From a virus: DNA of 20,429 nucleotides. The stretch is from the IMG/VR virus record IMGVR_UViG_3300034018_001553, positions 1 through 20,429 of that record. One strand, given 5' to 3'. Positions 2,655 to 18,476 of the stretch are shown piece by piece (position 1 is the first letter of the stretch; every line of letters starts with the position of its first letter). Position numbers and translations under genes: made by a program. The notes below the pieces were generated by a model, which was not told the DNA's origin, made no database searches, and saw nothing but the letters and a program-made list of their open reading frames with translations.

Positions 2655-2883
2655 TATTAAAAATCTTATCTAAAAATATTAAATCATCTTTTGAAACGTC
2701 ATTAATAGTTGCGTCAATTTTTACCTCTTGGTTTACAAAAAATCCTGTTTCCGTTACCCAAGTTGTTTTGACAAATATTTTACCCTTTTGCCATTGTTGG
2801 CTAATAAAATCACCATGATAATGCTTTTTAAACTCCTCGAAGCCTAAAGATACTAATTCCGACATTGTGAGGTGTGTGGTCAT
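2638..2883 (-). CDS. Hypothetical protein, 81 aa
   Basis: I do not recognise this family. The protein starts MTTHLTMSELVSLGFEEFKKHYHGDF and continues with a strand-rich stretch (GKIFVKTTWVTETGFFVNQEVKI), then an acidic helix ending NNGTTK. It has no membrane segment or cysteines. It overlaps the upstream small membrane protein gene by ATGA and terS by 17 bases, so it is very likely translated from the packaging operon. A second Met at residue 7 is a possible alternative start. Confidence 0.7.
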   Translation of the reverse strand: MTTHLTMSELVSLGFEEFKKHYHGDFISQQWQKGKIFVKTTWVTETGFFVNQEVKIDATINDVSKDDLIFLDKIFNNGTTK

Positions 2884-3095
2884 GGTTTCTGTTTTTTATT
2901 AAATAAACGTCTTATAACATATCCTCGAATAAACGATACAATAAAAAAAACAAAAGTAATAAATATATTTTGATTAATTGTAACTTTTATTCCTAAAAGT
3001 GGATAAATCCATAATTGAATTAAAAAAGACGTTAACAAACCAACTACGACATTGGTAACGCTTTCAAGTGCTGAGTGCTTTTTAGTTTGGCTCAT
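2880..3095 (-). CDS. Small two-helix membrane protein (DUF7220-like)
   Basis: The 71-residue protein has a short cationic N-terminus (MSQTKKHSALESVTNVVVG), two hydrophobic segments (about residues 17-35 and 42-59) and a basic tail (RRLFNKKQKP). The order SALESVTNVVVG...PLLGI...VSFIRGYVIRRLFN matches my memory of a small membrane-protein family widespread in phage genomes (DUF7220-like); function unknown. A role in lysis is possible for any small two-helix phage protein but nothing here shows it, and the gene sits next to packaging genes rather than the lysozyme. TTTAAACACATG lies at the start codon. It overlaps the next gene by ATGA. Confidence 0.75.
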   Translation of the reverse strand: MSQTKKHSALESVTNVVVGLLTSFLIQLWIYPLLGIKVTINQNIFITFVFFIVSFIRGYVIRRLFNKKQKP

Positions 3096-3106
3096 GTGTT
3101 TAAAAA

Positions 3107-3196
3107 TTAATCATGTTCCGGCATATCCTTTGCCGTTGCTATGCCGTAAATAAATAAAGCTATGCCTACTATTAAAATAATTGCTATTGCTCCCAT
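3107..3196 (-). CDS. Single-span mini-membrane protein, 29 aa
   Basis: The ORF encodes MGAIAIILIVGIALFIYG followed by IATAKDMPEHD: one hydrophobic helix and a short charged tail. It overlaps the upstream 56-aa ORF by 13 bases and ends 12 bases before the ATG of the next gene, consistent with the packed operon. It is too short for a family call; the membrane prediction is by eye. Confidence 0.5.
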   Translation of the reverse strand: MGAIAIILIVGIALFIYGIATAKDMPEHD

Positions 3197-3354
3197 TTGT
3201 TAAATATTTCTTTGTTCATTCTTTTTGCTTGGTCAATAGATACTCCAGCCCAATACAATTGATGCTTAAATATCTGCGTGCCTTGTTTGTTGTAATACCT
3301 ATAACCCATTAATTGGCTATGGTATTCTTGGTAACTTAATTCGTATCGTGTCAT
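3184..3354 (-). CDS. Hypothetical protein, 56 aa
   Basis: The ORF encodes MTRYELSYQEYHSQLMGYRY and ends AKRMNKEIFNKWEQ. It is rich in Tyr, Gln and Lys with no membrane segment and no motif I recognise. It is the first gene after the terminator-leader at 3370-3489, and its ATG follows TTTAAACACATAAACACC, the start-region pattern used by many genes in this window. Its 3' end overlaps the 29-aa ORF by 13 bases. Real translation is supported by spacing and start context, not by homology. Confidence 0.6.
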   Translation of the reverse strand: MTRYELSYQEYHSQLMGYRYYNKQGTQIFKHQLYWAGVSIDQAKRMNKEIFNKWEQ

Positions 3355-3369
3355 GGTGTTTATGTGTTT

Positions 3370-3396
3370 AAAAACCGCCTCAAGCCGTAAGGCGGT
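3370..3396 (-). terminator. Intrinsic terminator before the packaging operon
   Basis: The minus strand reads ACCGCCT, a 9-base loop, AGGCGGT and then five T. It is downstream of the promoter at 3455 and upstream of the ATG at 3354, so it can end the upstream operon and also attenuate the packaging operon. Confidence 0.8.
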
Positions 3397-3427
3397 GTGT
3401 AATTAATAACTCTAAATTATAAATCAT
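3380..3427 (-). CDS. Putative 15-codon leader peptide overlapping the terminator
   Basis: The ORF MIYNLELLITHRLTA begins at 3427, about 25 bases after the expected transcription start. It runs through the first arm of the terminator and stops (TGA 3382-3380) at the border of loop and second arm. This is the same geometry as the portal leader ORF. Supported by position only. Confidence 0.35.
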   Translation of the reverse strand: MIYNLELLITHRLTA

Positions 3428-3454
3428 GAAAAGAACGTTGTCGGCTTGATTTGA

Positions 3455-3489
3455 CAAATGTACTAATTAAAATTTAAACTGCTTTCAAA
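3455..3489 (-). promoter_or_regulatory. Probable promoter of the packaging operon
   Basis: TACATTTG (3462-3455) fits TAnnTTTG; a TTTG lies at 3489-3486 with a 23-base spacer, at the long end of the accepted range. It overlaps the 3' end of the HTH gene. Confidence 0.5.
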
Positions 3490-3672
3490 AATCTGAAAAA
3501 TTTCTGTTTTTTTTCTGTTGCTAAATTTCATCAAATCACTTTTTAAAAAAAATAACTCCCCTTTGATGTTTTTTGAGTAGATTTTTTTTGAAGCAACCAA
3601 ATAATCAAACTTACCTTTGTTGATTTTTAAAAATATTTTTGCTTCCGTTTTGGTTAGAATTTCGTCGGTCAT
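3463..3672 (-). CDS. Excisionase-like helix-turn-helix protein
   Basis: The 69-residue protein has the layout of an HTH_17/MerR-like excisionase domain. ILTKTEAKIFLKINKGKFDY forms the helix-turn-helix, ASKKIYSKNIKGELFFLKSDLMKF gives the wing and the closing helix, and a short basic tail follows. Such proteins bend or bind DNA as recombination directionality factors or small transcription regulators. With no integrase in the window, a regulatory role is as likely as excision. The gene follows the methyltransferase with almost no spacing (stop 3674, start 3672) and ends the operon that begins at 7169. It is unusually rich in Lys, Phe and Ile. Confidence 0.65.
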   Translation of the reverse strand: MTDEILTKTEAKIFLKINKGKFDYLVASKKIYSKNIKGELFFLKSDLMKFSNRKKTEIFQIFESSLNFN

Positions 3673-3673
3673 T

Positions 3674-4702
3674 TTAGAAAAGTTCTATTTGTTTTGATTT
3701 ATTATTGTCATTAAATCTTTTCTCGGCTTCTTTCATGTTTAAAATAGCTTGTTTGTAATAACTATCTTTTAACTCTATTCCGATTGCCTTGCGACCCATT
3801 GAAACAGGACTAAAAACCTCACTACCTACACCCATAAAAGGCGTTAAAACAACTTCATTAGGATTTGAATATAATTCTACTAATCTGTCAATTACATCTA
3901 ACTGCAAAGGGTGCACATGCTTTTCGTCATCCTCTTCTTTGCTATCTCTAAATGGTAAAACATTATCAATACGAATGTCATCCCAAACGCTCGAGGCGTA
4001 TCTTTGCCAAATGTAATGATTTAATTTTGTAATTTTATCGTCCTCGTTAATATTGTTTAAATGCTTCCATAACTCGGCTTCGTTTAAATCTGAATTATTA
4101 GCATTATTCCACGCTCTTAAAATGTTTGGTAAAATTGGCACTTCTCCAGCATAATGATTAATTCCAAAAGGATGCGTTACGGGTGTTTCGTTTTCACCTT
4201 TTTTAGTAAATACCAAAACATAATCAGGCATAGCGGTAAAACATTTTGTACTATCCTCAACTATAAATTTATGCATTAAACTTTGTACCATTGTGCGCAT
4301 ACGAACTTTTAAAGGCTCTTTCCAAATTGTTATACGGTTGCGATATTCAAAACCATGTTTAGTATGAAGTCTTATTATTTCATTTGGAAAATCCCATAGT
4401 CTACAAGTGTTGTCAAATACATCTGTGCAATGTACGGCAGTTATACGACCTTTTTTTGTAACCCTTGCAATTTCTTTAATCAAAAATTCGTATTGTTCTA
4501 AAAATTGCTCTTTGCTTTCACAATTACTAAAGTCATTTTCTGAACTTGAATAATTATATAAACCAGCAAAGGGAGGGCTATAAATTGACAAATCTATACT
4601 TTCGTTTGGAAGTGTTGGCATTACTAACATGCAGTCGCTATTATAAATTGCATAGCGGTCTGTTACTAATTGGTCTTTTACTTTGTTTTCTGTGCTTTTC
4701 AT
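3674..4702 (-). CDS. DNA amino-methyltransferase (N4-cytosine or N6-adenine), beta-class order
   Basis: This S-adenosylmethionine-dependent methyltransferase of the N6_N4_Mtase family modifies exocyclic amino groups in DNA. The catalytic motif IV appears first as SPPF (residues 42-45, in LSIYSPPFAG) and the SAM-binding motif I appears late as TPFMGVGSEVF (from residue 287), followed by GIELKDSYY. That is the beta-class order. SPP[YFW] is more common in N4-cytosine enzymes than the DPPY of adenine enzymes, so m4C is slightly favoured. The middle region (about 100-280) holds the probable target-recognition part. The length of 342 is normal. The SNF2-type helicase gene lies immediately upstream with 2 bases between, so the pair is probably co-translated and may act together. 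No cognate nuclease gene is next to it. It may protect phage DNA from host restriction; that role is inferred. Confidence 0.85.
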   Translation of the reverse strand: MKSTENKVKDQLVTDRYAIYNSDCMLVMPTLPNESIDLSIYSPPFAGLYNYSSSENDFSNCESKEQFLEQYEFLIKEIARVTKKGRITAVHCTDVFDNTCRLWDFPNEIIRLHTKHGFEYRNRITIWKEPLKVRMRTMVQSLMHKFIVEDSTKCFTAMPDYVLVFTKKGENETPVTHPFGINHYAGEVPILPNILRAWNNANNSDLNEAELWKHLNNINEDDKITKLNHYIWQRYASSVWDDIRIDNVLPFRDSKEEDDEKHVHPLQLDVIDRLVELYSNPNEVVLTPFMGVGSEVFSPVSMGRKAIGIELKDSYYKQAILNMKEAEKRFNDNNKSKQIELF

Positions 4703-4704
4703 GT

Positions 4705-6072
4705 TTATAAAAAATTAGGTGTTAAAATTGGTTTATTAAATTCTTTTACTTTATTTTCAAAACTACGATTAACATTTTCAGTTAAATTTTTATGTAGTTG
4801 TATTGCTTTTTGTGTTTTTTGTTCTAACGCTTCTAATACTCTTGTTTGACCATCTGAAATTACCATATCAATAGTAACGTCGTTTTTTTGACCAAACCGC
4901 CAAAAGCGTCTTATAGCTTGGTAATATTGCTCATAACTCCATGTAGGAAAAAATACAGAATGATTACAATGTTGCCAATTTAAACCCATTGAAGTCATTT
5001 TAGCTTTTGTGATTAATCTTTCTATTTCTCCATTTGCAAACGCTAATAGTATTTCTTCTTTTTTGTCTATGCTTTGACTTCCAATTATCTCAACTGCATT
5101 TTTATCTGAATGTTTTAATATTGAACTTTCGTTGTTGGTATTACACCAATAAACCGACGTTTTACCTTGTGCTAATTCAATAGCTTTTTCACATCTTTTT
5201 TCTTCTGTTTGCTTTTGCTCATGTCTAACTTCTGTCATTGACTTTGCTATCGGTGTAAACATTTGTATTTGTCCGTTTACATCTATTAAAGATTGGTTTT
5301 CTACAATATGCCTATTAATAACAAGTTCAGGCAAATTATACCTTTCATTGCTAAATCCTAAATCGCTCGGCATTTTAGCCATAATTGACCATTGGTTAAC
5401 CCACGCAAAAAAATCTTTTTCAGCATGAGGTTTTAAATAAAACTTTTCGCCAATGTTTCTATTATTACTATCTACTGAATTTTGATTGTTTTTAAAAAAC
5501 TTTCCTAACATATCCATATACCCCATATAACCGAGTGCTTCGCTACTTGTGCCTAATTCTATAAAATCGTTCGGACTTGGTGTGGCGGTGCTTAAAAATC
5601 TGAATGGTATTTTTTTAACAAAGGTTGTTACCTCTTGTTTTATTTTACCATCAAAGTTTTTTAAAATACTGCTTTCGTCTAAAATTACGCCTTCAAAATC
5701 TTTTTCATTAAAATAATGCAGTCGCTCATAATTGCAAACAATTATTTTTTTAGTGTGCTTCCCATCTTTTGAATATTCGATGTCATCAATACCTAATTTT
5801 TCGGCTTCTAAAATAAATTGAAAAGCAACTGCCAAAGGTGTTAAAATTAAAACTTTTTTATTTGTGTGGTTAACAATATTTTTAGCAAGTGCTAATTGTA
5901 CCAAAGTCTTACCAAGTCCAGTATCTAAAAATACTGCGCTACGACCTTTTAAAATAGCTTTTTCAATAACAAATTTTTGAAAATCAAAAGCTATTTCAGG
6001 GATATAATTTGCCTCAAACCCAAAATTGCCTATTGAATGTTTTTTGTTATTAATAAATTCCTGATATTCCAT
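4705..6072 (-). CDS. SNF2-type SF2 helicase/translocase
   Basis: The 455-residue protein is an ATP-driven DNA translocase of the SNF2/RapA type. Visible motifs are I, DTGLGKT (50-56); Ia, LILTPLAV; II, LDESS (131-135), in place of DEAH; III, STATPSPND (161-169); and VI, QAIRRFWRFGQ (385-395), which carries the arginine fingers and the RxGQ signature of SNF2 enzymes. The second RecA domain includes KTSVYWCNTNNES and a TSMGLNWQ motif V. No zinc finger or nuclease domain is fused to it. The methyltransferase gene follows after 2 bases, a coupling that suggests a joint function such as strand separation or scanning for modification. A separate SF2 DEAH helicase (10395-12044) and an SF3 helicase make three helicases in 8 kb, so this one is probably not the replicative motor. 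Confidence 0.88.
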   Translation of the reverse strand: MEYQEFINNKKHSIGNFGFEANYIPEIAFDFQKFVIEKAILKGRSAVFLDTGLGKTLVQLALAKNIVNHTNKKVLILTPLAVAFQFILEAEKLGIDDIEYSKDGKHTKKIIVCNYERLHYFNEKDFEGVILDESSILKNFDGKIKQEVTTFVKKIPFRFLSTATPSPNDFIELGTSSEALGYMGYMDMLGKFFKNNQNSVDSNNRNIGEKFYLKPHAEKDFFAWVNQWSIMAKMPSDLGFSNERYNLPELVINRHIVENQSLIDVNGQIQMFTPIAKSMTEVRHEQKQTEEKRCEKAIELAQGKTSVYWCNTNNESSILKHSDKNAVEIIGSQSIDKKEEILLAFANGEIERLITKAKMTSMGLNWQHCNHSVFFPTWSYEQYYQAIRRFWRFGQKNDVTIDMVISDGQTRVLEALEQKTQKAIQLHKNLTENVNRSFENKVKEFNKPILTPNFL

Positions 6073-6085
6073 GTGTGTTTAAAAT

Positions 6086-6418
6086 TTAGTTGTTAATCTT
6101 TTTAGCTATCCCTAAAATTGACTTTCTATCCTTTTGAAAAGCCTTTAAAATAAAAGCTATTTCTCCAAAGTGTTCAATACCTATCTCTGACATTGTTTTA
6201 ATCATTGCCTCAAATGCGCCTTGAACGTCATCAACTGCGTTAAACTCACGATTAAACATTTCGTCTGCGACCTTTAATTTGTTGGCTAAATTTAGCTTAA
6301 AATTTTTTAGGTTGCTTTTTTCTTTGCCTGTAAATATTCCTGCAGGCTCAATCGTCTGTACGCAAAAGTCTAAACTTATTAAACTTTCTAAAACTGCTTT
6401 TTGTTGTTTAGGGCTCAT
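6086..6418 (-). CDS. Hypothetical protein, 110 aa
   Basis: I do not recognise this family. The protein starts MSPKQQKAVLESLISLDFCVQ and looks all-helical, with long amphipathic stretches (NLKNFKLNLANKLKVADEMF; QGAFEAMIKTMSEIGIEHFG) and a basic end (KDRKSILGIAKKINN). It has no membrane segment. It sits between the SGDDGEDS-motif protein and the SNF2 helicase with spacings of 4 and 13 bases, so it belongs to the operon from 7169. Confidence 0.7.
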   Translation of the reverse strand: MSPKQQKAVLESLISLDFCVQTIEPAGIFTGKEKSNLKNFKLNLANKLKVADEMFNREFNAVDDVQGAFEAMIKTMSEIGIEHFGEIAFILKAFQKDRKSILGIAKKINN

Positions 6419-6422
6419 GGTA

Positions 6423-6749
6423 TTAATTAGTTGTTAATGCATCTAAATCATATTTTAGTCTTGAAACCAAACTATCTTCTCCATCGTCTCCAGAAAGATA
6501 CCAATCAATTCTTTGAGCATATATCTCAGCTTTTTTTAATATTTCAATTCCGTCTTTAAAAATTTGCTGTACATCTTCTCTATAAACGTGTTCAAATCGG
6601 TCTTCGGGATATTTTTCAAAATATTCTTTATCGCAATATATTAAATCTTCTTTAGATTTTTCTTTACCTTGTTTATCTAATTCTTCTTGAATATTCTCCC
6701 AAATTTGTCTTATTTTATACTGATTGTAATCAAAAGATCCTCCACTCAT
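6423..6749 (-). CDS. Conserved phage protein with WYLSGDDGEDS motif, 108 aa
   Basis: The N-terminus MSGGSFDYNQYKI and the C-terminal stretch RIDWYLSGDDGEDSLVSRLK are two hallmarks that I recognise together from a small protein common in phages and prophages of many hosts; its function is unknown. The middle is charged and helical (QEELDKQGKEKSKEDL; DVQQIFKDGIEILKKAE). The family is often found near early or accessory genes, as here. It is spaced 4 bases from the next gene and 9 bases from the previous one. Confidence 0.75.
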   Translation of the reverse strand: MSGGSFDYNQYKIRQIWENIQEELDKQGKEKSKEDLIYCDKEYFEKYPEDRFEHVYREDVQQIFKDGIEILKKAEIYAQRIDWYLSGDDGEDSLVSRLKYDLDALTTN

Positions 6750-6758
6750 AATGTAATT

Positions 6759-6983
6759 CTATTTAAAATTTTGTAAATCCCTTCCAAACTGCTCAAACAA
6801 ATCATTTAACTGCTCATTTTTCGGCTCTATTATAAACTGCTTTAAAGTAAGCAATTCAATAACTACTTTACCATAACCGAGTGCATTGTGCAAATCTTTG
6901 GTGTTAATGCAGTGATATTTTAACTGCTCATTTTCTTCAACCATTTGGTCAATTTTACTGATAATCTCTTGTGTTGTTTTCAT
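6759..6983 (-). CDS. Hypothetical helical protein, 74 aa
   Basis: The protein starts MKTTQEIISKIDQMVEENEQLKYH and continues with leucine-rich helical segments (KVVIELLTLKQFII; EQLNDLFEQFGRDLQNF) that could form a short coiled coil or dimer. I recognise no family. The ATG is preceded by TTTAAACACATAAACAC, the same arrangement as at 3354. It is second in the operon that starts at 7169. Confidence 0.65.
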   Translation of the reverse strand: MKTTQEIISKIDQMVEENEQLKYHCINTKDLHNALGYGKVVIELLTLKQFIIEPKNEQLNDLFEQFGRDLQNFK

Positions 6984-6995
6984 GTGTTTATGTGT

Positions 6996-7169
6996 TTAAA
7001 AAATTAATAAATGCGTTCCATTGTCGATTACATTAAAAACCTCATATTGGTTTTCTTTTGCATAAAGAAAATCTCTGCTTTCTTTGTTTGTCATTTCGTC
7101 TGAACCAATAACAGTGTATTTGTTTGTTTCAAATAAAATTCTTCTGATTTCTCTGACTGTTGTTTTCAT
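6996..7169 (-). CDS. Hypothetical protein, 57 aa (first gene of the operon)
   Basis: The ORF encodes MKTTVREIRRILFETNKY, then VIGSDEMTNKESRDFLYA, and ends FNVIDNGTHLLIF. The pattern 'DEMTNKESRDFLY...FNVIDNGTHLLI' looks like a small conserved phage protein, but I cannot name a family or function. TTTTAAACACATG lies at the start, and the promoter at 7202 is about 33 bases upstream. The protein is probably soluble. Confidence 0.65.
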   Translation of the reverse strand: MKTTVREIRRILFETNKYTVIGSDEMTNKESRDFLYAKENQYEVFNVIDNGTHLLIF

Positions 7170-7201
7170 GTGTTTAAAATTTCAGTGTTATAATTATAGG
7201 G

Positions 7202-7268
7202 CAAATATACAAATGTTATTTTAATAAATTATAATGTTATAAAAAAATTTAAGAAAGTTTTAACATTT
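7202..7268 (-). promoter_or_regulatory. Promoter with shared 40-bp upstream element (copy 1)
   Basis: TATATTTG (7209-7202) lies in the recurrent 13-mer TTTGTATATTTGC. No TTTG -33 element is present. Instead TTATAATGTTATAA (7229-7242) covers the place where it would be, followed eight bases on by AAGAAAGTTTTAACATTT (7251-7268). The same block occurs at 15026-15065 with 35 of 40 positions identical. Confidence 0.65.
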
Positions 7269-7270
7269 GG

Positions 7271-7411
7271 TTATATCTGCAAACATTTATAAGTCCATTC
7301 AGGTTTTTTATTAAGTTTTAACCATTCACCAAAAGACATCGTTTTTTCAATTTTTTGGTCGGTTACCTTATGCCATGCAATAACCTTAACTAATGTTTCT
7401 TTGGATAGCAT
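7271..7411 (-). CDS. Hypothetical protein, 46 aa
   Basis: The ORF encodes MLSKETLVKVIAWHKVTDQK and ends KKPEWTYKCLQI. Its start lies inside the end of the VRR-NUC gene (26-base overlap) and its stop lies just before the 7202 promoter element, so it would be the last gene of the primase operon. No family is recognised. Support comes from filling the space between nuclease and promoter with a continuous frame. Confidence 0.5.
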   Translation of the reverse strand: MLSKETLVKVIAWHKVTDQKIEKTMSFGEWLKLNKKPEWTYKCLQI

Positions 7412-7715
7412 CTTGAAAGTCTTTTAAATTTCTAATTAACCAATATTCATAACCAAGTGCCTCAACTCTTTTTTGAAAGTCTTTTTGTGCTTCTGATTGC
7501 GTGCCTTTATCGGTTTTGTTTTCTACAAAAAAAACTTTATCTTTAATGACCACAATACAATCTGAGGCACCTTTTTCAATAACTGCGCTTTTATCTTTAT
7601 AAGTATATTCATTTGGGACCGGAATAATAATTCCAAGTCCTTTTCTTTGATATTCGTTTCTAAACCATGCAATTATATTAATCTGTAAAGTGTGTTCTTT
7701 AAAATGGCGAGTCAT
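7386..7715 (-). CDS. VRR-NUC domain nuclease
   Basis: With start ATG 7715 the protein has 109 residues and consists of one VRR-NUC fold, a PD-(D/E)XK-type nuclease found in phages as a stand-alone Holliday-junction or flap-type enzyme. The core is GASDCIVVIKDKVFFVENKTDKGTQSEAQ: Asp52 and the Glu65-x-Lys67 pair are the expected metal and catalytic residues, followed by the conserved Gln-rich helix (Q73, Q77). The domain ends with GYEYWLIRNLKDFQDAI, the typical 'Y-x-x-[VI]-R' strand and helix. A longer frame reaches 7817 but overlaps the primase-helicase end by over 100 bases; the start at 7715 overlaps by 17 bases and is preferred. Phages often place VRR-NUC next to a VirE/D5-type primase-helicase, as here. 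Confidence 0.85.
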   Translation of the reverse strand: MTRHFKEHTLQINIIAWFRNEYQRKGLGIIIPVPNEYTYKDKSAVIEKGASDCIVVIKDKVFFVENKTDKGTQSEAQKDFQKRVEALGYEYWLIRNLKDFQDAIQRNIS

Positions 7716-10053
7716 CTTCAAATATTGTTTGTTTGTTTGTTTTGTAAAAAATCCATCTAACTGAATGGCTTCTGCCTTGCTCAGTTTCAATTTTGTAAAA
7801 TTTACCAAAAGTTTCAAGCCATAAAGTAAATTTCTTTTGTGTTAACCATTTTTTAAAATCGGGATAGTCATTTGTGAATTTTACAAAATACTCAGATTTA
7901 TCTAATCTTTGGCCTTTTGGTAAATTTTCATCATCCTGGCTCCATTCGTAAAACTCAAAAGATGTTTCTTTTATAAATTTACGAACTTCTAAATTATTAA
8001 AATTGTGAGATACTAAACCTTTTTCTAAATAATATTGAATGCAATTAATCATAAAATTATCAAACATTAACCATTCATTATTATCCCAATCACTAAAAAG
8101 CATATGACCAAATTCATCAAGCGGTGTATGTTTGTAGCTAAAATAATCTGACATTTCAACTTCAAATTTTCTACGTTCATGCGAACCACCAACGCCACCA
8201 AGTGTATAATTTGTAGTTATTAATATTTTCGGTGATTTTTCAACCGGAATAGTTATTGCATCCTGCCCTTTATATTCAAGTGTAATACCTTCAGTTATTA
8301 AACTAAAAAGACTTTCAAAATTAAAATTTTTCTTAACGTCATCAAATACTAAAACTTGCGTATCTGTTGAAACGGTTTGATATGGAAATGATTTTGTAAA
8401 TTCAAATGTTTTACCATCAATCCGGTCAACTTTTTTCATATGCTTTAATGCATTCCAAAATAAACCCTTACCACTTCCACCATTAGGATTTTCTGAAACG
8501 GTGCAATCATTAAAAATAACTGCTTTGTTATCTGCTGAGGTTTTAAATGAATGCATTAAATATCCTATTACTGTTTTAAATGAATTGTATTTTTGAACAT
8601 CTTTACCGGAAATTAACCAAAGAAATGTTCTAAACTCGGCTTTGTGGTGGTCCATTGTTTTAAAATCACGGTCAATTATTTGCCTTTTCCAAATATATCC
8701 ATCGACATCTAAATATTCAATTTTTTCAAAAGTATCTTTAGTTATTTTAACAACGCAATTTCTGTAATATAAAAAACATTCGTCTTTGTTGTCTTCTTTT
8801 ATTTTTACGTCTGTTGTTGAAAGCATAGATAAAAAATCAGATTTAAAATAACTTGTATTTGATGCCATAAAGTCATACGGACCATAACCAATATTTGAAC
8901 GGTCCAAAATATTATTTAAAACATAATCTTTTATTCTTTTCTCATTTGTTTCTTCAAGTAAATTTTGTTCTTTTTTAATAAATGTAAATGTATTTGAATT
9001 TTTTGAAGGATAGTATTTAAAAAAATTATTTTGTTCTAACCAAAACTTAAATTTATGAATTGACAATTGTATTTTGCCTTTATCATTATAATACCAAAAT
9101 TCATCAATATCAATATTTTCTCTAATTTTAGATATATCAACTTCTTTAAATTCCTTTTCAATATCTTTTTTATTTTTTCCTGATCGTATTAATTTTTCAA
9201 TCTTTTCTTTTTTAGATACGTCTTCAAAAGATTTACAAGCACTTTGTTTTTTGTATGCTGAATTTACAATGCCTTCAATTTCTTTTTCTGTAAAATCTGT
9301 ATTAATAAATTTTTTACATTCATGCAACGCGTCTGTTTTATCAACTTCAAAATCATTAAAAGCACAAGCTAATTTAAAAAGATTATTATTTCTACTACCT
9401 TTGTTTGCACCATATTTTTTTTGCCACCATGTCAAAAGATTTTGAATAATTTGATTTGAAGACGTTAATTTTACAATTGGCTCAAAAACTCCTATATCCT
9501 CAATTTCGGGTTCCTCTAATTCAATCCAAATATCTGAATTTTCATTTATGTAAATATCTGGGTCGTAACTTTCAAAACAAAATCTTGAAACATCTGAGCC
9601 ACTTTCATCCCAATATTTTGAGTCAAAGTGTTTTTCAAGTGTTTTAAAATATCCTTTGTGATTTTCTTTTAATCCTGGCACTTTTACTAATACCTTTACA
9701 CCTTTTCCACTTGGTGAAATCCATGCTGAAAAAATAAAGTTATCGTCACAAATAGAATTTTTAAAGTCAATAGCATTTTGTTTATTTTCAAACTTATCAA
9801 AATCTAAAATAATTAAACCTGAATGTTGCAATAAACCATTAATTGACCTATTTTGAAATTTACCATTAAAACACACTCCCGGTAAATTGCTTTTATTTTT
9901 TTGATAGTCATCATCTGACATTTCTCTAAGTTGTTCAACAAGTGTTTTTGATTTACCTGTTTTAATTCTATCGAGTGCATAAAACACATTTTTGTGAAAA
10001 GGAGTGTTTGGGTCCTTTACCGATTTAAAAATTGAAATAATTGCTGTTGTCAT
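7699..10053 (-). CDS. Replicative primase-helicase (VirE_N-like, PriCT, SF3 helicase)
   Basis: The 784-residue protein probably opens and primes the phage origin. The N-terminal 170 residues resemble the BT4734/VirE_N primase-like domain (LQHSGLIILDFDKF; SAWISPSGKGVKVLVKV; ESGSDVSRFCFESYDPDIY). A primase C-terminal type region follows (GSRNNNLFKLACAFNDFE...KEIEGIVNSAYKK). The SF3/D5-like ATPase has Walker A GGSGKG (525-530), Walker B VLVFDD (567-572) and sensor ILITTN (610-615). It ends FEDDSPF, like an SSB tail. ATG 10053 was chosen because TTTAAAC precedes it; the longer frame to 10092 would start with GTG and read through the terminator. Its leader carries a terminator and the iteron region lies just upstream. 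The VRR-NUC gene overlaps the 3' end. Confidence 0.88.
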   Translation of the reverse strand: MTTAIISIFKSVKDPNTPFHKNVFYALDRIKTGKSKTLVEQLREMSDDDYQKNKSNLPGVCFNGKFQNRSINGLLQHSGLIILDFDKFENKQNAIDFKNSICDDNFIFSAWISPSGKGVKVLVKVPGLKENHKGYFKTLEKHFDSKYWDESGSDVSRFCFESYDPDIYINENSDIWIELEEPEIEDIGVFEPIVKLTSSNQIIQNLLTWWQKKYGANKGSRNNNLFKLACAFNDFEVDKTDALHECKKFINTDFTEKEIEGIVNSAYKKQSACKSFEDVSKKEKIEKLIRSGKNKKDIEKEFKEVDISKIRENIDIDEFWYYNDKGKIQLSIHKFKFWLEQNNFFKYYPSKNSNTFTFIKKEQNLLEETNEKRIKDYVLNNILDRSNIGYGPYDFMASNTSYFKSDFLSMLSTTDVKIKEDNKDECFLYYRNCVVKITKDTFEKIEYLDVDGYIWKRQIIDRDFKTMDHHKAEFRTFLWLISGKDVQKYNSFKTVIGYLMHSFKTSADNKAVIFNDCTVSENPNGGSGKGLFWNALKHMKKVDRIDGKTFEFTKSFPYQTVSTDTQVLVFDDVKKNFNFESLFSLITEGITLEYKGQDAITIPVEKSPKILITTNYTLGGVGGSHERRKFEVEMSDYFSYKHTPLDEFGHMLFSDWDNNEWLMFDNFMINCIQYYLEKGLVSHNFNNLEVRKFIKETSFEFYEWSQDDENLPKGQRLDKSEYFVKFTNDYPDFKKWLTQKKFTLWLETFGKFYKIETEQGRSHSVRWIFYKTNKQTIFEDDSPF

Positions 10054-16235: not shown

Positions 16236-16769
16236 TTAAAATTTAAATCTATACCCTACAACTATATTATTAACATTATTTATTCTCAAATAATCAACTT
16301 CAATATTTTTAAAACCTACACCCGCTTTTAATATAGGCGTGGTGGCGTTTAAATCTGAACCGATACCAACACTCAAAGAAAAGTTTTTCGAGCGTTCTGG
16401 CTTAATTATATAGTCTAATTCAATATGTTTTACTTCTCCAGTAGTAATGCCTTTTATGTTTGCAATTAAATTGTCATCACTTGTGGCCCATTGAAATTGT
16501 TTAGGCTCGATAGTTTGAGAATAAACACTATCTTTTTTAGTACATGGCAAATCTACAAAAATCGTTTGTAAGCTATCCTTTTGTTTTTGCCAACGTGTAA
16601 CGTGTTTTGTTATTAATCTGTCTTTAAACTCGCTTATTTTAATCGTATCGTGCTTTATTTCTATTTCTTTAGAAATTAACGTGCCTTGTTTCGGCTCATG
16701 TCTACAAGTTTGCATCAATAAGAATACAATTGCACCACCTAAAAATAAATAAATTAATGGTTGTTTCAT
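16236..16769 (-). CDS. Membrane-anchored protein with beta-rich C-terminus (DUF6808-like, spanin candidate)
   Basis: The 177-residue protein has an N-terminal hydrophobic helix (about residues 4-20) followed by CRHEP, then a polar helical linker (about 30-100, with KHDTIKISEFKDRLITKHVTRWQKQKD), and a C-terminal part of alternating strands (FSLSVGIGSDLN; ILKAGVGFKN; IEVDYLRINN; IVVGYRFKF) ending in an aromatic Phe, as in outer-membrane beta proteins. The layout resembles what I recall of DUF6808 proteins of Bacteroidota and their phages. An inner-membrane anchor, a periplasmic linker and an outer-membrane-like end would suit a spanin; this is inference. The Cys at 22 is not in a clean lipobox. 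It overlaps the upstream gene by ATGA and lies 4 bases before the methyltransferase start. Confidence 0.6.
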   Translation of the reverse strand: MKQPLIYLFLGGAIVFLLMQTCRHEPKQGTLISKEIEIKHDTIKISEFKDRLITKHVTRWQKQKDSLQTIFVDLPCTKKDSVYSQTIEPKQFQWATSDDNLIANIKGITTGEVKHIELDYIIKPERSKNFSLSVGIGSDLNATTPILKAGVGFKNIEVDYLRINNVNNIVVGYRFKF

Positions 16770-16975
16770 TTTATAAGTTTTAATTGTTCAACATTCGCTT
16801 GCGGAATCAATCCAATAACAGCATCAAAATTAACTCTTTTTCCGTTAATAAAAACGTATGTATATTTTCCGTTTTTAGTTTTAGCAACTTTTTTGAAATA
16901 TAGCATTCTCAAAGACTTTTCGCAAAATCTTTTCAGTCTGTAAATCTCGTTGTTATGTTTGACGTAGTTTTTCAT
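16766..16975 (-). CDS. Hypothetical basic protein, 69 aa
   Basis: With ATG 16975 the protein starts MKNYVKHNNEIYRLKRFCEK and continues with basic strands (KKVAKTKNGKYTYVFINGKR), ending NVEQLKLIK. A longer frame to 17014 would need TTG and is not preferred. It has a strongly positive charge and may bind nucleic acid; no family is recognised. It overlaps the next gene by ATGA. Confidence 0.55.
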   Translation of the reverse strand: MKNYVKHNNEIYRLKRFCEKSLRMLYFKKVAKTKNGKYTYVFINGKRVNFDAVIGLIPQANVEQLKLIK

Positions 16976-17014
16976 TTGTAAATTGGGTTGCGTATATTTA
17001 CGAGTTAGTAGCAA

Positions 17015-17278
17015 TTATTTTTTGCTACGTTCTGCACAAAATTTACAGTTCCCTTTATGTGTCATCATTTGTGAGTAACCAACGCCCGATATTAAGTATT
17101 GGCAACTATCAAATTCTATTATTGATATTTGATAACCATTAACTTCTACTGCTGTTTTAAATACTTTCGAGCGTTCTTCTGCTCTATTCATATCATCGCA
17201 ACCGCAAAAAATAACAGCTACTAACAGCACATAAGCAAAAGCAAAGGTTCTGTGGTAAATTGATGTTTTCGTTTTCAT
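17015..17278 (-). CDS. Small lipoprotein with HKGNCKFC motif, 87 aa
   Basis: The N-terminus MKTKTSIYHRTFAFAYVLLV is a signal sequence leading to VIFCGCDDM, a lipobox-like site with the Cys at residue 27 as probable lipid anchor, followed by Asp-Asp. The mature part is short and ends GYSQMMTHKGNCKFCAERSKK. The 'H-K-G-N-C-K-x-C' end with two cysteines resembles a small family seen in Bacteroidota genomes and their phages; function unknown. It is the first gene of the operon that also encodes the membrane-anchored beta protein, so an outer-membrane partner role in lysis is possible. No promoter was found directly upstream; the cassette at 17344-18399 may have separated it from its original one. 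Confidence 0.65.
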   Translation of the reverse strand: MKTKTSIYHRTFAFAYVLLVAVIFCGCDDMNRAEERSKVFKTAVEVNGYQISIIEFDSCQYLISGVGYSQMMTHKGNCKFCAERSKK

Positions 17279-17343
17279 ATTATATTCTGTTTTTAAGTTA
17301 AAATTTTCGTTTCTAAATCTTTGCCTTCGCTTATCTGCGAAAC

Positions 17344-18399
17344 GTTATATGAAATGCCTCGCTGACCGTTTCCAATTAAAGTTCCGTGAAGGAAAAACAA
17401 AAAGAAAAAAGCCACCGCATTTTTAAATATCTCGTGTATCAAAGTTAATTTCATTTTCAGTTTCTATTCTTGGGTTCAAATCATTTGTTCCGCAAAAACC
17501 GTTACATTCAAATAAAGGTTTTACTTCTTGTGGTTTCATATCTGCCAAGCATTTTAATTCAGGATATTCAGGATGCTTTTTTAGAAATATAAATTGCTTC
17601 CATTTAACACCGCTTTCTTCAACTATTGATTTAGCTTCTTTACTTTGGTCTTTCAGCATCGTTACAGGCTCTCCACGCAAAGCAGTTAGTTTGTGTTCCA
17701 TTTCTGCCATTGCATTAAACTTATCAATGAAATCTCGTTCCATCTTTTGCCAATATCCAATACCGCCTTGAACGCATCCAGTCTTAAAGCAATTATTATT
17801 TCTAAATCCTAATTGATACATTTTAGGTATTTCAATTCCAGCATCTTGCACAATTCGTAAGCAATCATCTTTATCGTATGCCATCATAAGTAATGGATAA
17901 ATACCTTTTGCTTTCGGGTGGTTTTTATGGAGTCCTAATGCTCTGTTACATTCTTTTTTATCAAACTCAAATCCGAATACTTGATAATCATATTCATTTT
18001 CTTCTTGCCATTTTTCACGCACCCTTCTTTTTAATTGAGTTGAACAAATTGCACCAGTAGCCACATTTAGAGATTTGTGTTTAGTCCAAACATCTTGTAT
18101 GTTTTCATAATCTTTTCCTATTTCGGTTATCAGTTCAATTTCTTGACCATACCATCTTTCGCAATCTGCAAAAAACCTATAAGTATCTTCATCTTCATTG
18201 TAGGTGTCAATCATCACTATTCTGCATTCGTTTTTGCCTTTAAACAAATCCAATGCAATTTTACAAGCTACGGCAGATGTAATTCCTCCACTCCACCAAC
18301 AAATTATTTTTTTATTTTCCATCCCTTTTTTTCTTTTTGTTTTTCTGTTTAGTGTTTCAATTCAAGTTTTGTACTAAATAAGTCGGCACTTCATATAAC
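17344..18399 (-). mobile_element. Putative gene cassette bounded by 15-bp inverted repeats
   Basis: GTTATATGAAATGCC (17344-17358) and its near-exact inverse, GTTATATGAAGTGCC on the minus strand (18399-18385), bound a unit of about 1.06 kb with one gene. Next to the right end is a long imperfect palindrome (18393-18476) that resembles an integron attC site. Next to the left end are short inverted repeats (TTCGC/GCGAA at 17327-17342). The flanks are visibly richer in G+C than nearby phage spacers. There is no transposase or integron integrase, and no clear target-site duplication. Confidence 0.5.
17423..18322 (-). CDS. PP-loop ATPase / PAPS-reductase-family protein
   Basis: The 299-residue protein belongs to the adenine-nucleotide alpha-hydrolase/PAPS-reductase-like superfamily. 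It opens with ICWWSGGITSAVACKIALDL, where SGGITS (11-16) is the PP-loop, followed by the strand IVMIDTYNEDEDTY. Further features are NVATGAICSTQLKRRVREKW (Cys93), FGFEFDKKE and NNNCFKTGCVQGGIGYWQKM (Cys178, Cys183), which could bind a metal or carry a thiol. Close look-alikes occur in Bacteroidota and phage genomes with unknown substrate. Sulfonucleotide reduction, nucleotide or tRNA thiolation and DNA modification are all conceivable; none can be chosen from sequence. It is the only gene in the inverted-repeat cassette and has its own promoter at 18485, so it is probably an acquired accessory gene. Confidence 0.8.
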   Translation of the reverse strand: MENKKIICWWSGGITSAVACKIALDLFKGKNECRIVMIDTYNEDEDTYRFFADCERWYGQEIELITEIGKDYENIQDVWTKHKSLNVATGAICSTQLKRRVREKWQEENEYDYQVFGFEFDKKECNRALGLHKNHPKAKGIYPLLMMAYDKDDCLRIVQDAGIEIPKMYQLGFRNNNCFKTGCVQGGIGYWQKMERDFIDKFNAMAEMEHKLTALRGEPVTMLKDQSKEAKSIVEESGVKWKQFIFLKKHPEYPELKCLADMKPQEVKPLFECNGFCGTNDLNPRIETENEINFDTRDI

Positions 18400-18476
18400 A
18401 CGGGTTTGGCAAAATGGCTTTCCGACACACAAGCCAACGCACAAAAGCCACTTCGCCAAGCCCGATACCGTTAAAT
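18393..18476. repeat. attC-like imperfect palindrome
   Basis: A 21-bp pair of arms (18401-18421 and 18444-18464, 18 of 21 complementary) encloses a 22-base loop. Outside the arms lie ATATAAC (18393-18399) and GTTAAAT (18470-18476), close to the RYYYAAC / GTTRRRY boxes of integron attC sites, with 1 and 5 unpaired bases between box and arm. Total size, 84 bases, is in the attC range. Confidence 0.5.

Follow-up and report, generated by a model that had tools for sequence, protein, structure and literature searches.

Two one-gene units in a phage genome

The window, by which we mean the whole stretch of DNA analysed here, is a 20,429-base IMG/VR virus record carrying terminase, primase and endolysin genes together with a weak portal match, and its closest cultured relatives are Flavobacterium phages. 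These genes bear out the original prediction in placing the unit of interest inside a phage. Towards the right end of the window lie a lipoprotein-like gene and a PP-loop gene, each within a putative integron cassette. The exchange point in the crossover triplet is written here as G/TT. The features are as follows.

16980..17006, plus strand: attI-like site at the left edge of the array, aaattgggttgcgtatatttacga/GTT, with the crossover after G17004 (matrix match)
17004..17344, plus strand: putative cassette 1 in attC orientation, its gene antisense; found alone in other viral contigs
Ends of cassette 1, plus strand: GTTAGTAGCAAT and ACAGCTACTAAC (R'' at 17214-17225)
17015..17278, minus strand: lipoprotein-like gene of cassette 1, 87 aa (ORF; homologs in L131-L139)
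17219..17350, minus strand: putative attC of cassette 1, core from AAC 17223 to GTT 17346, 124 nt (palindrome scan; bottom-strand fold)
17344..18470, plus strand: putative cassette 2 in attC orientation, its gene antisense; exchanged as a block in phages whose right flank is 96-98% identical
Ends of cassette 2, plus strand: GTTATATGAAAT (17344-17355) and ACTTCATATAAC (18388-18399), R' and R''
17423..18322, minus strand: PP-loop/PAPS-reductase-like protein, 299 aa (ORF; PHROG and Pfam matches)
18393..18476, minus strand: putative attC of cassette 2, ATATAAC ... GTTAAAT (bottom-strand fold; repeat search)
18470..18476, plus strand: right edge of the array, G/TTAAAT, with fixed phage DNA beyond (homology of L127, L128 and L129 stops at 18469)
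18516-18485, minus strand: promoter-like motif TTTG-N20-TATTTTTG, facing into the array at its right edge (sequence)

The PP-loop assignment made earlier is upheld by matches of the 299-aa protein to PHROG 424 (E 1.4e-44) and to Pfam PAPS_reduct PF01507 (E 6.5e-6), and a solved relative is PDB 21fy, 'PptA' (E 5e-38). The 15-bp inverted repeats said to bound this one-gene unit are in place and complementary at 14 of 15 positions (GTTATATGAAATGCC at 17344-17358 and GGCACTTCATATAAC at 18385-18399), and a repeat search likewise recovered the 84-base palindrome at 18393-18476, whose 21-nt arms (18401-18421 and 18444-18464) match at 18 of 21 positions (86%), as had been claimed. Folded as single-stranded DNA, its minus strand reaches -16.9 kcal/mol (z -4.1), a value equalled by none of 200 shuffles. 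Within the cassette, a perfect 19-bp A/T-rich inverted repeat (GAAAAACAAAAAGAAAAAA at 17392-17410 and TTTTTTCTTTTTGTTTTTC at 18327-18345) flanks the PP-loop gene and is nearly conserved in L004-L006; perhaps it is a candidate for pairing between the 5' and 3' UTRs.

The 87-aa protein begins with what was judged by eye to be a signal peptide followed by Cys, and it matches PHROG 19356 (function unknown). Its cassette occurs singly in viral contigs L132-L134 and L136-L138, where homology breaks at about 17004 and at 17347-17355. The start codon and signal peptide of the gene fall within the attC of cassette 1. Such overlap of attC with a gene start is seen in some cassettes, the hairpin arm then encoding the signal peptide or N-terminus (17214-17278 in the window; L127:2976-3101), and the example in L127 and L128 is a 96-aa protein. 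Moreover, window positions 17222-17355, comprising the attC and codons 1-27 of the lipoprotein gene, are 93% identical to L139:3811-3945, where other sequence is joined and the homology break falls at the R'' AAC. Elsewhere in the window, a second small repeat family is hinted at by an 80-bp interval (7188-7268) that matches elsewhere in related phages at 83% identity (also at L127:6895-6973).

Hairpins, unit ends and gene orientation

The palindrome is not unique to this phage. The exact 18-mer ATATAACACGGGTTTGGC of the hairpin is present in 37 viral stretches, and a 17-mer of it in 63 genome stretches, nearly all of them from Bacteroidota; searches of plasmids and of Rfam gave no match for the hairpin. 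Among its copies the outer arms are constant and the inner stem varies with compensation, complementarity of the inner stem being 5.69 of 6 over 29 distinct arm pairs, compared with 4.17 after permutation. The ends of the units match beyond GTT and AAC as well, with a mean of 5.2 of 9 positions in 105 viral units against 3.66 (sd 0.13) when permuted, and 33 of these 105 units show 8/9 end matches, where about 1.6 would be expected. Both units of the window consist of one gene and an attC, and their R' and R'' match at 10-11 of 12 positions. With respect to the R-box consensus (RYYYAAC / GTTRRRY), GTTAAAT at the right edge conforms, whereas ATATAAC and GTTATAT do not strictly do so; the core common to all units is YAAC and GTTR. 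A conserved A.C mismatch in the unit ends of about 12 bp (GTTNNNNSCAAT and ACTGSNNNNAAC; in the window, 17344-17355 and 18388-18399) marks polarity in phage and chromosomal arrays.

Both putative attC of the window are bottom-strand-selective hairpins with asymmetric unpaired bases, and their minus strands share one layout, namely a 5-bp R stem, a 4-nt one-sided bulge, 3-4 bp, a 1-base mismatch and then a 16-17-bp stem; on its plus strand, the 17219-17350 hairpin does not take up this layout. Among 75 phage attC the bottom strand is the more stable one for 58 (p 1e-8), and among 60 chromosomal attC for 38 (p 0.004). As the fold energy of the 17219-17350 hairpin is unexceptional (z -1.2), its position and layout are the evidence that it is an attC. 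The original prediction had described a weak hairpin and nothing more at this 3' boundary of the PP-loop unit; the structure there is better read as an attC that has the minus-strand layout of its neighbour and terminates exactly at the G/TT of cassette 2.

The 84-base palindrome, in turn, had been taken for the attC of a preceding cassette. The polarity given by the GTT crossover, the bottom-strand fold and the conserved end marks makes it cassette 2's own attC, with the PP-loop gene antisense to it. With polarity taken from the unit end marks, the gene is antisense to attC in 102 of 105 viral-contig units and in all 19 Moomin phage units (121/124 together), counts that do not represent independent events because related phages share units; in Flavobacterium chromosomal arrays, the gene is sense to attC in 88 of 91 units. 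Antisense orientation would make the phage cassettes a pool apart from that of the host. The PP-loop gene was found in none of 150 Flavobacterium genomes (a search run without a positive control), a result that a separate phage pool would also predict.

Orientation also bears on expression. The promoter-like motif, which we take to be of the Bacteroidota type on general knowledge of the consensus, had been thought to travel with the unit. It falls outside the cassette, in the fixed flank common to L127-L129, and so is not brought by the cassette. Transcription of the antisense cassette genes would then start in the fixed phage DNA that borders the array on its far side.

Exchange of units, the attI-like site and a recombinase class

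Phages 91-99.7% identical to the window hold other cassettes inside the same edges, with breaks at G/TT, and DNA methyltransferases are among the replacements. Identity to the window is 98.4% in the right flank and 99.6% in the left flank for L127, 97% and 91%, respectively, for L128, and 96.5% in the right flank for L129, whose contig ends within the array. Homology reaches up to 18469 in all three and resumes at 17344-17355 in L127 and at about 17007 in L128. The intervening one-gene units have the form GTT-gene-AAC-hairpin-GTT and include two different DNA methyltransferases. Because near-identical phages have other units between the same edges, the window can be divided into two cassettes, 17004-17344 and 17344-18470; nor do all related phages carry the PP-loop gene, and none of the refuting conditions of the original prediction that were checked holds. 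The search for an empty site proposed there yielded no perfect one, and the exact sequence TTTACGAGTTAAATTTACYCC has no match in IMG/VR. A more distant relative, L142, was rejected as an empty site, since it lacks the whole stretch including the promoter and the neighbour gene.

Unit arrays are also present in cultured Baltic Flavobacterium phages, which are virulent (Nilsson et al. 2020, PMC7077304); in hemulen6-1, 11 palindromes were scored from 2705 to 9079. Differences of a single unit separate mumin6-1 from mumin6-3 (506 bp), sniff9-1 from sniff9-2 (439 bp) and snork6-1 from snork6-2 (342 bp). Over the 14 kb that were compared, a 2-base block is the only other difference within the sniff pair. 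The junction in each of these gain/loss events falls exactly on G/TT at the right attC end, which fixes the polarity of attC, and in the sniff and snork pairs the R'' AAC lies entirely within the differing unit. The repeats at these junctions are short (6-12 bp). Thus single units have been gained, lost or replaced at G/TT both in the three cultured pairs and between L127-L129 and the window.

At the left edge, an attI-like site can be recognised on sequence grounds. A matrix trained on only 22 Flavobacterium chromosomal junctions between a recombinase and its first cassette (consensus GCGCATATATACAA/GTT) ranks position 17004 first among 897 GTT sites in the window, at 14.6 bits with the next at 5.5, and this best site coincides exactly with the array's left edge as read in attC orientation. 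The same edge is found, identical, in L127 and L128. In 1.36 Mb of viral loci, counting both strands, the matrix finds 12 distinct sites of 7 bits or more, and a unit starts directly at 6 of them (background 5.8%); further matrix sites at array edges in L005 and L007 were noted by eye. In a new sample across the class, with the unit finder tuned on the same data prior to this out-of-sample test, 16 of 20 loci have their best attI site 80-160 nt past the stop codon of the recombinase. The matrix fails to mark the array edges of the Moomin phages and of the recombinase-bearing viral records, which indicates that phages have more than one type of attI site. Chromosomal attI sites in Flavobacterium, among them those of L190, L202, L208 and L213 some 100 bp past the recombinase stop, contain inverted as well as direct repeats that are specific to the species, such as GCGCTAC..GTAGCGC in CATATATACAA/GTT.

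No integrase adjoins the attI-like site of the window, where the left-edge neighbour is an 82-aa ORF (16766-17014). The profile of the canonical integron integrase (TIGR02249) found no member in 43 viral records, 150 Flavobacterium genomes or 148 Flavobacteriales genomes, and one above the cut-off among 47 hairpin-bearing genomes; its match in G070 indicates that the search for canonical IntI works. In two viral records, a tyrosine recombinase of 277-289 aa lies at the array edge, and a scan for relatives gave four viral recombinases that share 40% identity or more; the start of each lies some 45-60 bp from the R'' of the terminal cassette. Relatives occur in 133 of 150 Flavobacterium genomes at 1e-25, a count that includes Xer proteins, and roughly half have the close form of about 350 aa; at 1e-70, a relative is found in 59 of the 198 genomes from the class (~30%). 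Of the 35 Flavobacterium loci in which the sequence extends far enough, 24 have a cassette beginning 80-160 nt past the stop codon, most commonly at 100-104 nt, as compared with 0 of 19 control tyrosine recombinases; behind the chromosomal recombinase the cassettes form chains of as many as 12. Many draft contigs stop just past the recombinase gene, as repeats would cause them to do.

The catalytic R, K, HxxR, H and Y are all present in these recombinases (R125, K150, H214, R217, H240 and Y249, invariant in alignment A2). The IntI-specific insert is absent from 10 of 10 aligned recombinases and present in the true IntI of L156, and their scores of 155-219 bits lie below the TIGR02249 cut-off of 265 bits. 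Their best profile is NF040815, with scores that straddle its 220-bit cut-off. The enzyme appears to act like an integron integrase but falls outside IntI as defined by the insert and the TIGR02249 cut-off. The viral recombinases form a clade (98/95) separate from the main chromosomal one. The viral records that carry them are fragments in which no terminase was found with phrog_2, so their phage nature rests on few genes, namely those for endolysin, exonuclease and a DnaB-type helicase. L118, L120, L122 and L123 (Bacteroidota) encode related recombinases, 475-603 aa in size, in which one or several repeated domains of some 60-70 aa stand at the N-terminus. Several near-identical copies of a 320-328-aa tyrosine recombinase were seen in G228 (C1, ~997054-1014829) and G135 (C1), those of G228 within a few kb of each other and near an integron-type recombinase.

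The integron reading, its alternatives and known systems

The original observation of a PP-loop gene in an integron-cassette-like unit within a phage is confirmed. Its interpretation as an integron cassette is supported by the boundaries of the units and their attC structure, the matching of R' and R'', the replacement, gain and loss at G/TT, the match of the left edge to chromosomal attI, and the linkage of recombinase genes to arrays. All of these are read from sequence, and on this basis we class the window units as probable integron cassettes with an attI-like site and without an integrase. The explanation that we consider highly probable is an integrase-less phage integron of two cassettes (17004-18470) that is served in trans by a Bacteroidota recombinase. 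Such an array would comprise the attI-like site followed by two circularisable cassettes, each ending in an attC that folds from the bottom strand. The enzyme acting on these phage sites would most likely be a Bacteroidota IntI/XerA-like tyrosine recombinase of about 280-350 aa without the IntI-specific insert, of the kind that appears in many host chromosomes and a few phages, there adjoining an attI and a cassette array of its own. As the window contains no recombinase, service in trans is inferred, and either the host or a co-infecting phage may supply the enzyme. Exchange at the G/TT of attI and of the right end of attC would allow a cassette to be gained or lost by the phage with its other genes untouched. 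Weighing against this explanation are the lack of a perfect empty site, the array edges that the attI matrix leaves unmarked, and the failure to find the PP-loop gene in Flavobacterium genomes, although the last would fit a separate phage pool as well.

Alternatively, genes and hairpins might be swapped as modules solely by homologous or strand-slippage recombination, general or phage-encoded, in which no site-specific recombinase takes part. The phages do have recombination functions (a NinG-like protein), and the repeats at the gain/loss junctions measure only 6-12 bp. In addition, the PP-loop unit in L004-L006 keeps its own ends with different hairpins adjoining it. That both hairpins vary among relatives is evidence against a simple integron cassette, which keeps its own attC, and it suggests that homologous recombination also shapes the arrays. 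As the sole cause this process seems unlikely, since all three joins fall exactly at G/TT, the unit-specific 12-bp end matching is not needed for homologous exchange, and the edge carries an attI-like site matching chromosomal ones, with recombinase genes at array edges. It is distinctly improbable that these are ordinary cassettes moved by the canonical IntI of another host and captured as a passive CALIN, given the counts of canonical integrase reported above and the match of the window's attI-like site to sites beside the non-canonical recombinase; yet the attC of a Polaribacter phage recombine with IntI1 (Qi et al. 2023, PMC9892861), its units have a similar layout, and one hairpin-carrying Kapaibacterium genome encodes a true IntI. 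A reading of the hairpins as transcription terminators or regulatory RNAs rather than recombination sites can hardly be correct. They do lie between co-oriented genes, and attC are thought to be weak terminators, and termination could be an added role, but Rfam gave no match, and such a function leaves unexplained the 12-bp matched ends, the precise gain and loss of units, the attI-like site, and the strand-selective fold with its conserved asymmetric bulge. A hairpin transposase of the IS200/605 type was also considered and set aside, as none was recognised in the ORF list of the window and the matched GTT and AAC ends and the attI do not fit.

Taken more broadly, the integron reading makes it probable that Bacteroidota own a widespread integron class, Xer/IntI-like, without the IntI-specific domain and missed by current models, from which phages that have attI and cassettes without an integrase borrow the host enzyme to swap anti-restriction and other genes through a separate antisense pool, a few phages carrying the integrase themselves. 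If so, a lytic phage can change accessory genes such as those for DNA methyltransferases and PP-loop proteins cassette by cassette by means of a gene-capture machine of its host, and cassette exchange would be a fast route around restriction. Plating differences have been noted in the cultured Baltic phages (Nilsson et al. 2020, PMC7077304) and may trace to their methyltransferase genes. A group in which, among Bacteroidetes proper, IntegronFinder 2.0 reported a complete integron only in Salinibacter (PMC9024848) would also gain a kind of integron that about 30% (59/198) of the genomes sampled from the class possess. A further question becomes testable, that is, whether the IntI-specific domain defines integrons, or whether an Xer-type enzyme without it handles single-stranded attC.

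Phages carrying integron cassettes had been regarded as little described. One report already describes integrase-less attC clusters in virulent phages, including a Polaribacter phage with methyltransferase cassettes, and the use of such sites by IntI1 (Qi et al. 2023, PMC9892861); cassettes in phages, Bacteroidota phages among them, are hence not new. In the open literature (subscription papers lay outside the scope), we found no account of the recombinase class, the Flavobacterium chromosomal arrays or a phage attI of this kind, and the attI, the recombinase class and the antisense pool appear to be new. The CALIN of P12002L, in which our palindrome scan was near background and units were read by eye, is like the window in belonging to a virulent flavobacterium phage, in having attC-bounded one-gene units that often encode DNA methyltransferases, and in lacking an integrase; its genes are likewise antisense to GTT...AAC. 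In contrast to that report, which assayed IntI1 and in whose accessible parts this attI type does not figure, the window has an attI-like site matching host chromosomal attI, and the present comparison adds gain and loss between isolates, a pool that is consistently antisense and a recombinase of another class. Sedentary chromosomal integrons share with the arrays described here an integrase, attI, tandem one-gene cassettes with attC, the G/TT crossover and bottom-strand folding. They differ in that the recombinase of our arrays does not have the insert specific to IntI and falls short of the integron-integrase cut-off, and in that the array begins about 100 bp past the integrase stop in the same direction, with the phage genes antisense. 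The extra integrase-binding sites of attI1 resemble the repeats of Flavobacterium chromosomal attI. With XerA, XerC and XerD (NF040815, TIGR02224/5) the recombinases have their best profile, NF040815, in common; unlike those proteins, their gene adjoins a cassette array, and they fall into clades distinct from the Xer-type recombinases of the genomes themselves.
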